Positions 3,008 to 33,439 of a stretch of 33,439 bases of DNA are shown in pieces. This DNA comes from a bacterium (GTDB taxonomy: Bacteria > Gemmatimonadota > Gemmatimonadetes > Gemmatimonadales > Gemmatimonadaceae), in contig CADDZN010000002.1 in assembly GCA_902812375.1 (NCBI GenBank), positions 1 to 33,439 of the forward strand, given 5' to 3'. A program made the position numbers and the translations under genes. Below the pieces are notes generated by a model, which saw only the letters and a list, made by a program, of their open reading frames with translations, was not told the origin of the DNA and searched no databases. How positions within the stretch are numbered: the stretch's first letter is position 1; the number at the start of each line of letters is the position of its first letter.

Positions 3008-4630
3008 TCAGACCCGCGCGAACGTTAGGTCCAAGCCTCGAACGGCGTCTGCAGTTGCGCCGCGATGTCCCTTCCACCATTCACTTGCCTGCTTCTCCCC
3101 CCATGCCTCTGTAGGTACCCAGCTCAAAGCATCCGAGAACTCCTTCGCGGATTGGGGACGATCGTTCGGATCCTTCGCGAGAGCCTTGATGATCAACCGG
3201 TCGAGCGCAGGTGGGATTGATTGCGTCGTGCGCTGGGAAGGCGGGACAGGTTCGGCCTGCAGATGCTTGGCGATCAGATTGATCGCTTTGTCGCCGCCAA
3301 ACACGAGCTCTCCAGTCAGGAGAAAATACGCGACGCAACCCAACGCGTAGATGTCCGTGCGTGCATCCACTGTCTCGCCGAGCGCCATCTCGGGCGACAT
3401 GTAAGCCGGAGTTCCGATCGCCATCTGGCCGGGAATAGTTGCAAGAGCTTCCTGCGGAGCGACGTCCGTGACCGCCTTCACGAGTCCAAAATCCATGACC
3501 TTGACGAAGTCGTGTTTTCGGCCAACGCGTCCCACATGGATGTTCGCGGGCTTGATGTCGCGGTGCACCAATCCATAACTGTGCGCCTCGTCCAGTGAAT
3601 CACACACCTGTCGCAGGATGTACGTGACACGCCCCGGAGAGAGCGGACCCTTTTGCTGAACGAGCGTCTCGAGGTCCATCCCGTCGAGATACTCCATCAC
3701 GAGGTACAGAGTATTGTCGGCGGTCACGCCGAAGTCGTACAGCTCCACCGTGTGCTCCGACCGAAGGTTTGCCGCCGCCTCTGCTTCTCGGCGAAAACGC
3801 GTGATGGCGAGCCGCGCTGTCTCTTCGTCCGCTGCGCCGAGCATCTCTGGCCGAATGAGTTTTATTGCGGCTGGACGAGCGAGCATGCGGTGCTTCGCTT
3901 TGTAGACTTCTCCCATTCCTCCGCGACCCAACAGCTCGCCGAGTTGATAGCTGCCCATCTCGCGGGCCTTCGTCACCTGCTGGCCGAGTCGGGTAACAAC
4001 GTGAGAGATCAGGACCGCAGCGCCGACCAGGATGAAGTCGGGGTAGTGCATGAGCAGCGCACCAATCGGTGGACCGAAATCCCAATGTCCCTGCGCGCGG
4101 GCGATCAGCATTGCGATTGGGTTCATAGATGCGGCAACGACTCCAACAGCCAACATCTTGAGTGGCGGAGTAGGAACGATTGCGGCGAACATCAGCAGCA
4201 GAGCGCCGACCCACGAGATCTGAGTAGTGAGCTGGTATTCTTTTGGTACATCGCCGACGTGCCACAGAATACCAAGCGCCAGCGAGCTCAGGATCAGGTA
4301 GCCGAGGCCGATGTCCAGAATCGTCTTCGGCTCGCGCCGACTCCGGCGCGTGTACGCGAAGAGTGCGAGCGACACGAGCACCATCACTACCGCAATGCCG
4401 TCGGTAGTGTCGAAAACTGCCCACGGAACGTTGTTCGCTGAGAGTGCGCCTGCTAAGTGACCGGTGACAGTGCCAATTATCCACAGGGCCGCGAACAGCA
4501 GCGCCAGGATCCCCAGCCTCAGCGAGGCCTCGCGCAGCAAATCTTCTGGAATCTCCTGTCTTCCGCCGGAGCGGCGTCCGCCGGACGGCGTCGAAGTCGG
4601 CGACGGAGCAATCAACTTCGCTAGCGACAT
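3008..4630 (-). CDS. Membrane-anchored Ser/Thr protein kinase
   Basis: A 540-aa protein with an N-terminal membrane part of about six helices (roughly residues 36-214) and a C-terminal Hanks-type kinase domain from about residue 228. Visible kinase motifs are the glycine loop (GRGGMGEVYKA, 235-245), catalytic Lys257 (AAIKLI), HRDIKPAN (356-363, catalytic Asp358), DFG (380-382) and GTPAYMSPE in the activation segment. All catalytic residues are intact, so it should be active. In most bacterial PknB-like kinases the order is reversed, with the kinase domain first and a single helix after it; here the membrane sensor is N-terminal. No extracellular PASTA domain is present. The gene leads into the ABC transporter genes on the same strand. 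Confidence 0.95.
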   Translation of the reverse strand: MSLAKLIAPSPTSTPSGGRRSGGRQEIPEDLLREASLRLGILALLFAALWIIGTVTGHLAGALSANNVPWAVFDTTDGIAVVMVLVSLALFAYTRRSRREPKTILDIGLGYLILSSLALGILWHVGDVPKEYQLTTQISWVGALLLMFAAIVPTPPLKMLAVGVVAASMNPIAMLIARAQGHWDFGPPIGALLMHYPDFILVGAAVLISHVVTRLGQQVTKAREMGSYQLGELLGRGGMGEVYKAKHRMLARPAAIKLIRPEMLGAADEETARLAITRFRREAEAAANLRSEHTVELYDFGVTADNTLYLVMEYLDGMDLETLVQQKGPLSPGRVTYILRQVCDSLDEAHSYGLVHRDIKPANIHVGRVGRKHDFVKVMDFGLVKAVTDVAPQEALATIPGQMAIGTPAYMSPEMALGETVDARTDIYALGCVAYFLLTGELVFGGDKAINLIAKHLQAEPVPPSQRTTQSIPPALDRLIIKALAKDPNDRPQSAKEFSDALSWVPTEAWGEKQASEWWKGHRGATADAVRGLDLTFARV

Positions 4631-4782
4631 AACTCTATAGTTTGGCGTTCAGGTGACATCACCCGCCAAATGGGCAGGCGCCAGCTACAATGCGAGCGAA
4701 GCTCGCCAATAGCAACACGTAAGTTTGCGGCGCAGGTCCAATCGACCGACACCGTGCGCGCGGGAACGAACGGCCCAGCTTT

Positions 4783-6186
4783 CTACTCTGCGAGGATTGT
4801 GGGCGGGCCCAAGGTCCGGCCTGCAACCGCGCTTTCTTTGCCGAGCACCCGCCGCACGAATTCCGGCCACCAGTTGGTCTGCGCATCACGAAATTTGTAA
4901 GCATCCAGCGCCGCCCAGGTGCGTTCATGGATCGCCCGGCCCAACTCGATCGCCTCGGCGCGACTTATACCCTCACGTTTGAGAGCACGGCGTCCGATCT
5001 GAGCGTGCAAAACTTCGTCGGCCCAGTCGTAGTCGTGAAAGTGCTCTGACAAGTCATCGCCCGCGGCAACCGCGGTCTCGTACTCGAAGCGCTTCCCGGT
5101 GTCGGCTGGCATCAGGGATTGCTCGATAGCGTAGAGAAGTATCTGCCGCTCCTCGGGCGTGGCGTGCAGGTTGAGCCGCAGCGAGAAGCCCACGTTGAGA
5201 GGTATTTGTGTCCAGTCGACAGCGCGGTCATTGAGAGCAACGGTGCCCATCATTGCATGCCGTGCTTCGTCCCAGAGCTGCCGCGAGTAGTCGTGATAGA
5301 ATTCCCACGGTTGGTCGCTGCGCTCGAACATGAACGAAGACATCACCTCCACGACGTCCATCTCGAGGGTGCGCTTGCAGAGAAGAGCCAGGTTTCGTTC
5401 GTCAGCGGGCACGGCCGGATCGTTGTAGACGACGTGCGGCGGGAATTCAAAGTTGTACAGCCCCTTGAACCGCTCGTCACGTTGCGGAGCGAAATCTGGC
5501 TGGAACGGCTCGCTCGCGCGTGGCCGGGGAAGCGGTGCCTCGACGTTGCGGATTATCACACCGCGACGTCCGTCGCCTTCGGCCAGCGATATACTTGGAT
5601 CACCGGCGATACCGCGCGCGGCGTCGAGATAACGCTCGAGGTGGTCACTCCATTCTGCGCGAAGCCCCGTTTGCGCCCGATCCGAAGTGAGCTTCTCGAG
5701 CGCGGCGGTTCCCCACTCGATCGCTTCGGTGACCTCGAGCAGGGCGAACCGCATGAATCGGCGCGTCGGATGGTCGACCAGCGGATTCGTTTTGTGCACA
5801 TGGTGTGAGTAGGCGTCGCGCAGCGCCGGCAATGCCACTGCGTAGATGCCCGTCAGCAGCTCGATGGTATTGCGGGAGCGCAGCAACTCCTCCAGGAAAG
5901 CATCGAGCGCGTCATCCGGCGGCTCGTCCAACGGCGGCGCGGGATGACGCATCTCGGTGATCCTCTTTCGCAACCAGTCGGCGTGCTCAGCGGCATACCA
6001 TTGATGGAGAGCCAGAGCGCATTTGACTTCCCACTCCGGCGTGTGACTCAGATGCGCAAGCATCACGTCCATCACGCGACGTTCGGCCCAATGAATTCGG
6101 ATAAGACGCCTTACATTCTCGTCCACGGAGTAGCCGATACGAGCGGCATCCTCATAAGTGGCGATCCCTGCGAGAGGAGCACACAT
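4783..6186 (-). CDS. Ferritin-like (diiron candidate) protein of unknown function
   Basis: A 467-aa soluble, helix-rich protein without a signal peptide. Two repeated helical halves carry possible iron ligands: an early LHQWYAAEHADW segment, a LLEVTEAIEW helix, a DEARHAMMG motif (the EXXH pattern of ferritin-like diiron sites) and a late DWADEVLHAQIGRRAL helix with another E..H pair. This matches the ferritin-like superfamily (DUF455-like architectures), but I cannot assign a reaction. It is much longer than a single four-helix bundle (about 170 aa), so a duplicated or extended fold is likely. Neighbours are a kinase gene 150 bp downstream and a TauE/SafE permease 50 bp away, all on the minus strand; no functional link is evident. 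Confidence 0.75.
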   Translation of the reverse strand: MCAPLAGIATYEDAARIGYSVDENVRRLIRIHWAERRVMDVMLAHLSHTPEWEVKCALALHQWYAAEHADWLRKRITEMRHPAPPLDEPPDDALDAFLEELLRSRNTIELLTGIYAVALPALRDAYSHHVHKTNPLVDHPTRRFMRFALLEVTEAIEWGTAALEKLTSDRAQTGLRAEWSDHLERYLDAARGIAGDPSISLAEGDGRRGVIIRNVEAPLPRPRASEPFQPDFAPQRDERFKGLYNFEFPPHVVYNDPAVPADERNLALLCKRTLEMDVVEVMSSFMFERSDQPWEFYHDYSRQLWDEARHAMMGTVALNDRAVDWTQIPLNVGFSLRLNLHATPEERQILLYAIEQSLMPADTGKRFEYETAVAAGDDLSEHFHDYDWADEVLHAQIGRRALKREGISRAEAIELGRAIHERTWAALDAYKFRDAQTNWWPEFVRRVLGKESAVAGRTLGPPTILAE

Positions 6187-17289: not shown

Positions 17290-17622
17290 CAAAGTATGAC
17301 TACCGGCCTGGGGTTTTAGCTGCAAAATATGACTACCGGCCGGGGGCTCACGGCGTGCCGGCCCAGGGCCGCGCGCGGGCTCTCCCTCAGTGCTCAGGAG
17401 CGGAAGGGGAATGGGGAGATTTCTTTCTGTGTGTGCGACACGATTCTACCATAGAACCGACGTACCTTCGAGAACCGACGTACCTTCGCCTTACTTTCTG
17501 GTGCCCCCTTTGCCAGTGCGCGCGCAGGAACAGCCAGCGCGGAGCCACCGGCCGGCACGCCATCAGCCCTCGGCCGGTAGTTTTTATTTTGCAGTTAAAA
17601 CCAGCCCGGTAATCGCATTTGC
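17290..17622. mobile_element. MITE-like element with about 90-bp terminal inverted repeats
   Basis: The left arm (about 17290-17380) and right arm (about 17533-17622) are imperfect inverted copies. Shared blocks, in left-arm order, are ACTACCGG, TTTTARCTGCAAAATA, ACTACCGGCCG, GGGCT and GGCGTGCCGGCC. The about 150 bp between them have no gene; the only open frames there are low-complexity shadows. Such a noncoding, gene-free inverted-repeat unit fits a miniature inverted-repeat element or a large stem-loop. No clear target duplication is seen. It fills most of the gap between the GH30 and TonB receptor genes. Confidence 0.6.
17453..17488. repeat. Exact 18-bp tandem duplication
   Basis: The unit AGAACCGACGTACCTTCG occurs twice back to back (17453-17470 and 17471-17488) with no mismatch. 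It lies in the interior of the MITE-like element, between the two inverted-repeat arms. Confidence 0.9.
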
Positions 17623-29804: not shown

Positions 29805-29847
29805 ATAGCCTCCGATTCCTTGCAAGGTACTTACATATTGTTCGCCT

Positions 29848-29940
29848 GGCTAACTGCCGAGTTCAGACTAGCAATCACTGTACAACCACTGCGTGAAATC
29901 CCATTCAAAAAAGGGTTGTCAGTTGCAACGTTTGTTAACG
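29848..29940 (-). repeat. attC recombination site (diverged)
   Basis: A 93-bp site. The plus strand begins GGCTAACTGCCGAGTTCAG, matching the conserved CTAACGCCCAAGTTCAG end with two changes, and ends in GTTGCAACGTTTGTTAAC, the equivalent of the other sites' left half. Core GTTAGCC sits at 29848-29854. The two ends are inversely complementary as in other attC sites. It separates the terminal lipoprotein cassette from the NTF2-like cassette. Confidence 0.75.
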
Positions 29941-29953
29941 GTGCGGGCGGAGT

Positions 29954-31171: not shown

Positions 31172-31268
31172 GCCTAACGCCCAAGTTCAGCTGCGAGCGA
31201 CTCACCATAGCTGCGATCATATCTAATTCCTTAAAGCGGGCGCTCGTCTGCTGCAACGTTTGTTAGCT
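31172..31268 (-). repeat. attC recombination site
   Basis: A 97-bp site. The plus strand runs from GCCTAACGCCCAAGTTCAG to CTGCTGCAACGTTTGTTAGC. On the minus strand the ends pair as imperfect inverted repeats (CGCTCG on both sides, GCTGAACTTGGGCGTTAG against GCTGCAACGTTTGTTAG). The core GTTAGGC is at 31172-31178. The stop codon TAA of the upstream cassette gene lies inside the other core, GCTAAC. Confidence 0.9.
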
Positions 31269-31767: not shown

Positions 31768-31860
31768 AGCTAACGCCCAAGTTCAGCCGCGGGCGATTCT
31801 CCTCTGAACATACACAACCCAACGACTTGGGCGCGCCGTCTGCTGCAACGTTCGTTAGAT
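31768..31860 (-). repeat. attC recombination site
   Basis: A 93-bp site. The plus strand starts AGCTAACGCCCAAGTTCAG and ends in GCTGCAACGTTCGTTAGAT. On the minus strand it opens with a consensus RYYYAAC (ATCTAAC) and ends with CTGAACTTGGGCGTTAG. The ends pair as GCCCGCGGCTGAA against TTGCAGCAGACGGCGC. It follows the 159-aa exported protein gene. Confidence 0.9.
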
Positions 31861-31877: not shown

Positions 31878-32357
31878 TCACAGCGCTCCCGATGCAAGCA
31901 ACCGAAAGAGCCTGTCGACACGTTCCCAGTAAGTCTCGCTTTCGGGCGTTCGGTGTGGACACTCCTCCTGAGCAAATTGAGCGCGACCACCACGCCTGAA
32001 CTCAATGTGAGTAAGAATCACGTCGGCACAGATTGGGAGCAGGAGCCCTGTATCCGCTGGTATCCGCGGGGGCGCGTTGACCAATGACTCGATCACCGCG
32101 AGGCTCGAATCCAGCGTCGCTTTGGGCAGCCGAACGGTTCGCGATCGATTCTCGTTGCTCAATTGCCTGGTAGCCACCGGCTCACCGCCCTTTGACGAGA
32201 TCCGGATCGTCTCAGTGATCCCGCTGAGCCCGCCCCCGCGACTGAGAATCGCTTCCACCGCAGAGTCCGGAGAAACGGAGGCCGAAGCGCAAGAAAGCAC
32301 GCCGAGCCCAACGACTATTTGGCCTATTGTTCTTGAGACCATACCCGTGAGTGCCAT
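31878..32357 (-). CDS. Exported protein of unknown function, cassette gene
   Basis: A 159-aa protein whose N-terminus (SRTIGQIVVGLGVLSCASA) is a hydrophobic segment with a lipobox-like VLSC, so it is probably a lipoprotein or secreted protein. The mature part (GGGLSGITETIRISSKGGEP; AVIESLVNAPPRIPADTGLL) shows no named family. The first ATG overlaps the attC core GTTAGATG; a second ATG five codons downstream (32342) fits a signal peptide better, so the start is uncertain. It ends 18 bp before the attC. Confidence 0.72.
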   Translation of the reverse strand: MALTGMVSRTIGQIVVGLGVLSCASASVSPDSAVEAILSRGGGLSGITETIRISSKGGEPVATRQLSNENRSRTVRLPKATLDSSLAVIESLVNAPPRIPADTGLLLPICADVILTHIEFRRGGRAQFAQEECPHRTPESETYWERVDRLFRLLASGAL

Positions 32358-32502: not shown

Positions 32503-32952
32503 TTAAGCAATTAACACATCGGCCGGGATTCCTAATTCATCTCTGAGGCTGCGGACCTGACCAATTGAAAGTGCGCGCTTTCCATTCAGGAACTCCGACA
32601 AACGGCTTCTTCCACCGAGGATCTCTGCCAAGTCGCCTTGGGCCATGCCGCGCTGCTCGGACATGAATTGAACGATTTCTTGAGGCGTCGCATCAGGTAG
32701 CTCAGGAACGTTCTTACTTTCGTAGTCCTGTACCAGAATCGCCAGGACTTCTAATACGTCATAAGCGACGGAGCCTTCAGGATGCGGTTCTCGCAAAAGC
32801 TGCCGGATGACCTGCTGCGCATGATCGTATTCGTCCTCGGTACGAATCGGTCGCGTCGCATAGACAGCCGCCTTCTCGGCGAATGATTGCGTGTCCGCGT
32901 CCCTCGGTTGTTTAACGCGCTTGTTGCGATGTGAAGTAGCGGTACCAGGCAT
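32503..32952 (-). CDS. higA: HigA-type antitoxin (XRE HTH)
   Basis: A 149-aa protein. The C-terminal half is a helix-turn-helix domain of the XRE type: RGMAQGDLAEILGGRSRLSEFLNGKRALSIGQVRSLRDELG, the arrangement of HigA antitoxins. The N-terminal part (YDHAQQVIRQLLREPHPEG) is the short region before the HTH seen in this antitoxin group. A strong AAGGAG site lies before the ATG. It lies 33 bp downstream of higB, in the toxin-first order usual for HigBA. It should bind and neutralise HigB and repress the operon. The stop is close to the attC. Confidence 0.9.
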   Translation of the reverse strand: MPGTATSHRNKRVKQPRDADTQSFAEKAAVYATRPIRTEDEYDHAQQVIRQLLREPHPEGSVAYDVLEVLAILVQDYESKNVPELPDATPQEIVQFMSEQRGMAQGDLAEILGGRSRLSEFLNGKRALSIGQVRSLRDELGIPADVLIA

Positions 32953-32985
32953 TTCTTCTCCTTTGTCCGACGAGACTGCTCGCTG

Positions 32986-33288
32986 CTAAGAGCCTAACAA
33001 CCCTACTCTAGTGAGTCGATCATACTCGACATGCGTATAGACGCCCTCGATGAAAACCGTTCGCATCGAGTACACGATATTGACGACTAATCGATACTTG
33101 TTGCCGCCGATGTTGAACGCGGTCGTCTCGCCTCCCAGGAATGAGGCAGTTGGGAAGTCCTTTTTCAATGCGCTTGGGTTCTCGTAGCTCTTGGCTCTCA
33201 TGAGTTTCCACCAGGCGCTGAGCGCTGATTGAGAATCCGGATAGAGGCGGGCGAACTCGTTGAGGGGCTTCCGAGAAATGACTCGCAT
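32986..33288 (-). CDS. higB: HigB-type mRNA interferase toxin
   Basis: A 100-aa protein of the HigB toxin family (RelE superfamily, PF09907-type). The sequence RVISRKPLNEFARLYPDSQSALSAWWKLM, then ASFLGGETTAFNIGGNKYRLVVNIVYSMRTVFIEGVYTHVEYD is the full-length pattern of the family. HigB cuts ribosome-bound mRNA. The start at 33286-33288 fits the promoter and operator just upstream. It is in the first visible cassette of the array, with higA directly after. Confidence 0.94.
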   Translation of the reverse strand: MRVISRKPLNEFARLYPDSQSALSAWWKLMRAKSYENPSALKKDFPTASFLGGETTAFNIGGNKYRLVVNIVYSMRTVFIEGVYTHVEYDRLTRVGLLGS

Positions 33289-33290
33289 TT

Positions 33291-33317
33291 CCTATGTTCC
33301 CAATATGGGAACATAGG
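33291..33317. promoter_or_regulatory. Palindromic operator of the higBA cassette
   Basis: Two perfect 11-bp arms (CCTATGTTCCC and GGGAACATAGG) are separated by 5 bp. It covers the -10 box and ends 2 bases before the higB ATG. HigA binding here is inferred from autoregulation of toxin-antitoxin operons. Confidence 0.75.
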
Positions 33318-33330
33318 AGTCACAAGTCAA
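33302..33330 (-). promoter_or_regulatory. higBA promoter inside the cassette
   Basis: The minus strand has a TTGACT -35 (33325-33330) and a CATATT -10 (33302-33307) with 17 bp between. The -10 is in the centre of the operator palindrome. The leader to the higB ATG is about ten bases. Confidence 0.65.
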
Positions 33331-33343
33331 TGCCGTTCCAGCT

Positions 33344-33439
33344 ATCTAACGCCCAAGTTCAGTTGCAAGCGATCGACTAAATGGGCGCCCAGAAGATCGC
33401 TTCTCGAAACATCTCGAGGAGTGACCACCTCTCTTCATT
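33344..33439 (-). repeat. attC recombination site, cut by window edge
   Basis: The plus strand begins ATCTAACGCCCAAGTTCAG, identical to the other sites in the conserved 17-bp block, and continues with TTGCAAGCGATCG. The left half core and the rest lie beyond the edge. Its core GTTAGAT is at 33344-33350. It belongs to the cassette just outside the window. Confidence 0.85.

Follow-up and report, generated by a model that had tools for sequence, protein, structure and literature searches.

A higBA toxin-antitoxin cassette with a promoter of its own and a predicted HigA operator in a Gemmatimonadota integron

Does the toxin-antitoxin (TA) gene pair at the end of a Gemmatimonadaceae contig form an integron cassette that brings its own promoter and operator, and where would such a promoter have come from? 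The window analysed here, a stretch of 33,439 nucleotides, is the entire contig C2 of a MAG that consists of 437 contigs and is 84.7% complete. The sequence-only reading had placed at 32503-33350 a HigBA cassette that carries a promoter and an operator of its own, regarded the promoter as unusual for a cassette and proposed that the module may hold the array in place. The open reading frames, the TTGACT/CATATT promoter with its 17-bp spacing and the palindrome were all found where it had located them.

The gene higB (33288-32986, minus strand) encodes a toxin of 100 aa that matched the PF09907 profile HigB_toxin with 85.2 bits (cutoff 27) over 72 of 74 profile positions, and its best solved relative was E. 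coli HigB (5IFG, E 8.5e-10). The gene higA (32952-32503, minus strand) encodes an antitoxin of 149 aa with a C-terminal HTH, which matched HTH_3 with 28.8 bits (cutoff 23) and had E. coli HigA (5IFG chain B, E 3.8e-4) as best solved relative. With higB upstream of the HTH antitoxin gene higA, the pair has the gene order of a type II TA system. A strong ribosome-binding site, AGGAGAAGAA, precedes higA; the sequence there reads AGGAGAAGAAATG.

The borders of the cassette were obtained from repeats. Copies of GCYATCTAACGCCCAAGTTCAG at 32353 and 33341 lie 988 bp apart, and related copies occur further left; together with the partner GTTGCARC...GTTAG the repeat has the form of an attC site, with inverted R boxes and L boxes with one extrahelical base. 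In attC the extrahelical base shows which strand is the recombinogenic bottom strand. Here its place in the plus strand's 3' half gives that role to the plus strand, so that the array is read on the minus strand, in agreement with the direction of the genes; a plus-strand reading of the array was ruled out by the same two features. Orientation and borders together, with the G^TTAGAT crossover points of two attC sites and the repeat spacing, delimit a complete cassette of 988 bp from 33349 to 32362 (minus strand), which has G^TTRRRY borders at both positions and the order promoter, higB, higA, attC. The range proposed earlier thus held the gene pair and the promoter but left out the cassette's own attC (R'' ACCTAAC ... 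R' GTTAGAT, about 32485-32356, minus strand).

More attC sites, all in one orientation, were found in the window and on contig C206. The attC of the preceding cassette (33341-33439, minus strand) is interrupted by the contig end and completed on C206. Downstream, on the minus strand, follow the attC of the next cassette (31771-31857), that of a further cassette (31175-31265) and a degenerate attC (29846-29943; repeat families D1 and D2, 74%) that is the probable distal end of the array. The window end and contig C206 overlap over 232 bp that differ in a single 1-base indel; C206 has six attC left-hand repeats, from which it follows that the array extends for at least 5.6 kb more. The one-base difference, GCCGTTCC versus GCCAGTTCC at 33325-33340 of the window, lies just upstream of the -35 element and probably reflects variation between strains, at which the assembly broke. 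Elsewhere in the window, a repeat cluster was observed in one short stretch (17290-17346, 17453-17488 and 17332-17581), with two 24-nt direct repeats separated by 33 nt, an 18-nt sequence duplicated perfectly in tandem and an imperfect inverted repeat of 78 nt.

The C206 part of the array (L023) contains a RelE/HTH pair, a DUF4258/DUF2283 pair and a HicB-like gene; DUF4258 is listed among RelE-superfamily toxins (PMC11980606). The RelE (PF06296) gene and its HTH antitoxin gene make up a second TA-like cassette (2337-1650, minus strand), and in front of the toxin gene TACGCCAATGGCGTA lies directly next to TATATT, again a palindrome beside a -10-like hexamer. At the HicB-like cassette (1575-1495, minus strand) the attC R' box supplies a -35-like TAGACA 18 bp before TATAAT. 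An IS110-family element (about 3745-5190; DEDD_Tnp_IS110, Transposase_20), with its frame split into 3842-4216 and 4213-4908, seems to separate an attC into a left half at 3721-3745 and a right half at 5193-5271; it resembles the IS1111-attC elements, which have cassette sites as their targets.

Within the cassette border and directed towards the toxin, the promoter scan gave a -35 element TTGACT (33330-33325, minus strand) and, after a spacer of 17, a -10 element CATATT (33307-33302, minus strand). The promoter score alone was at chance level (one found versus 0.7 +/- 0.9 in shuffles), and for this uncultured MAG the sigma-factor preferences were assumed. The -10 hexamer forms the centre of a perfect palindrome, the predicted operator TCCTATGTTCCCA-TAT-TGGGAACATAGGA (33318-33290), with a conserved core GTTCCC-N5-GGGAAC at 33312-33296. 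The earlier description of a -10 embedded in a perfect palindrome before higB was accurate except for the arms, which measure 13 bp with 3 nt between them and not 11 bp. No other palindrome in the window has arms of at least 10 bp, and 13-bp arms occurred in none of 30 simulated windows. The end of the -10 element lies 13 nt from the higB ATG; from its position we infer a 5' leader of about 7 nt (ATAGGAA, 33289-33295, minus strand), in which AGGA is too near the ATG for a normal Shine-Dalgarno sequence.

Relatives of the toxin gene gave a comparative test of both elements. Counting the window copy, the comparison set comprised 38 distinct higB relatives; most were supplied by a phylum-wide search, and an exact-peptide-seed scan of the genome contigs with HigB gave 8 matches. 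At a threshold of at least 10 of 11 scored positions, GTTNCC-N5-GGNAAC was found upstream of higB in 20 of the 38, against 0.025 expected in mononucleotide shuffles, a figure that is approximate since the motif was picked by eye before scoring, though the margin is very large. In 9 of the 20 operator-bearing relatives TTGAC precedes the hexamer in the middle of the palindrome by exactly 17 bp, so that the -10 element, with CANNTT as the equivalent of CATATT in relatives, falls inside the palindrome in these nine; in three more the distance is 18-19 bp. The operator core is situated 8-11 nt from the start in two relatives (L031 and L035) and further upstream in others. Operator types (GTTCCC, GTTACC, CATCCC and GCTCCC) follow the HigA HTH: over 32 loci the co-variation amounted to r 0.55, with a partial r of 0.47 given toxin identity, and none of 2000 permutations reached as high a value. 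Because the conserved operator co-varies with the HigA HTH beyond the relatedness of the toxins, autorepression by HigA is strongly supported, as far as sequence comparison can speak to it. Promoter and operator are, by the same comparison, real and conserved across relatives in the phylum, and the proposal of a HigBA cassette with both gains from their fixed spacing there. Two more PF09907 higB paralogues are present in the genome itself, on contigs C32 (L020/L027) and C77 (L022/L028). The C77 copy has GTTCCATATTTGGGAAC and TTGACT upstream, close to the window operator, and cross-regulation between the two is conceivable.

Nearly all of the higB relatives compared are plain chromosomal higBA operons, and the attC pattern used found no site around relatives other than the window copy and one same-genus relative. 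Since many relatives lacking attC share the promoter-operator layout, the promoter reads as native to the higBA operon, with which it travelled into the cassette, and not as a cassette invention. The idea that a promoter of its own sets this cassette apart was therefore not borne out: this promoter is the one that higBA operons normally have, and the rule that cassettes are promoterless has a standing exception in TA cassettes (PMC11023631, PMC11014356). The closest named relative of HigB (86% identity) belongs to a Gemmatimonadetes MAG of the same genus (L059, QHUA01000027.1). Here the homologous block runs from the -35 element through higA into the attC, with 77% DNA identity from the -35 element through the attC start; promoter, operator, higB, higA and a complete downstream attC are kept, and no upstream attC was recognisable. 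The palindrome core and the spacing are alike in both copies, whereas the attC loop and the outer palindrome arms differ.

Taken together, we assign a probability of roughly 0.9 to the reading that a PF09907 higBA operon of the E. coli ygjNM type was captured whole as a cassette, together with its own HigA-repressed promoter. RNA polymerase would initiate just inside the cassette edge, from TTGACT and CATATT, and a HigA dimer on the palindrome would cover the -10 element and repress the operon. HigA would also mask HigB, whose family membership predicts cleavage of mRNA under translation. Weak translation of the toxin and strong translation of the antitoxin are likely, because the predicted leader of higB is only about 7 nt long and the ribosome-binding site of higA is strong; translation would then be biased to the antitoxin.

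Compatible with the captured-operon reading, and possible though on balance somewhat doubtful, is the proposal that cells losing the cassette are killed by it, that it thereby actively stabilises the array, and that this is why it has been kept. After loss of the cassette HigA would decay and leave HigB unopposed, so that excision could be penalised. TAs of the V. cholerae integron have their own promoters and make excision costly (PMC11023631, PMC11014356), and 'cassette loss killing' has been shown for those of the superintegron (PMC11023631). Consistent with such a role, at least one more TA-like cassette (RelE with its HTH antitoxin) and the DUF4258/DUF2283 and HicB-like cassettes adjoin on C206, and the same-genus relative retains higBA and its attC without an upstream attC. 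Against it, the two higB paralogues might buffer the loss if their antitoxins cross-neutralise, and excision may have ceased, as the sole integron-integrase match in the genome is a C-terminal remnant covering 72 of 315 positions. The proposal that the cassette holds the array in place is thus not supported by the sequence analysed here; array stabilisation is possible, by analogy with Vibrio, and may concern the past.

The integrase remnant lies on contig C260 (L026, 1779-1994), is frame-disrupted upstream, with traces of the upstream part in another frame, and is directly preceded by an unrelated gene that, from reading the sequence only, was labelled acetyltransferase-like. An attI-like segment after the remnant (2199-2254) is 95% shared with 1950-2005 of L024 on contig C332, where a one-cassette unit is found. 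A link between the remnant and the higBA array is not proven, and an intact copy of the integrase could lie in the missing 15% of the genome. Other integrase matches in the genome score like Xer recombinases, which match control genomes too; among 19 same-genus genomes, four had an integron-integrase match above the family cutoff. A more speculative extension, which we consider improbable, is that in this genus the higBA cassette outlives its integron: as an addiction module that expresses itself, it would persist after integrase decay and, in a relative, without an upstream attC, and its almost leaderless toxin mRNA would be tuned by an operator directly adjoining the start codon.

The palindrome might instead be the site of another regulator, or a hairpin or terminator in the transcript of the preceding cassette: as RNA, the inverted repeat would fold into a hairpin with a 13-bp stem and a 3-nt loop, and it sits 31-59 bp inside the cassette, just past the preceding attC. 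Such an origin is very improbable, as the palindrome co-varies with the HigA HTH and the conserved element looks like a pair of DNA-type half-sites, with N5 and the TTGAC distance both fixed, also in loci without an upstream cassette. No T-run follows it and the terminator scan called none there; the missing T-run and the fixed spacing in relatives lead us to reject the terminator or hairpin form. A phage-defence module of the PD-Lambda-2 kind is just as hard to credit, for although HigB matched the PADLOC profile PD-Lambda-2_A with 95.6 bits and HigA matched positions 4-118 of PD-Lambda-2_B, HigA (149 aa) covers only the start of that 402-position profile, the full-length B component is missing, and the cassette ends after higA without a third gene.

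As an operon whose own promoter is predicted to be repressed by HigA, the cassette can be set beside two known systems. V. cholerae higBA2, a TA operon of the superintegron, has the toxin first and its own promoter like the window pair, and the two share the layout of an operator over the -10 element: HigA2 protects a 7-bp inverted repeat with an N5 spacer, from after the -35 over the -10 element (PMC11006873). By this analogy HigA2 is a close functional precedent. However, HigB2 belongs to Pfam RelE (PF06296) (PMC11980606) and the window HigB to PF09907, the toxin-binding part of HigA2 is N-terminal and disordered, and the operator sequences differ. E. coli K-12 higBA (ygjNM) has a PF09907 toxin like that of the window, and its HigA likewise combines an N-terminal toxin-binding part with a C-terminal HTH; HigA and HigBA autoregulate there via promoter palindromes (PMC11980606). 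It differs in lying outside an integron and has low sequence identity to the window pair.

The self-regulated TA cassette is a kind already known, as in V. cholerae, to which a documented case from Gemmatimonadota integrons is added here. The comparison also provides a testable operator code for PF09907 HigA, in which GTTNCC-N5-GGNAAC stands against the CATCCC and GCTCCC types. Should the array-stabilising model prove valid outside Vibrio, the higBA cassette would be a natural place to test it.
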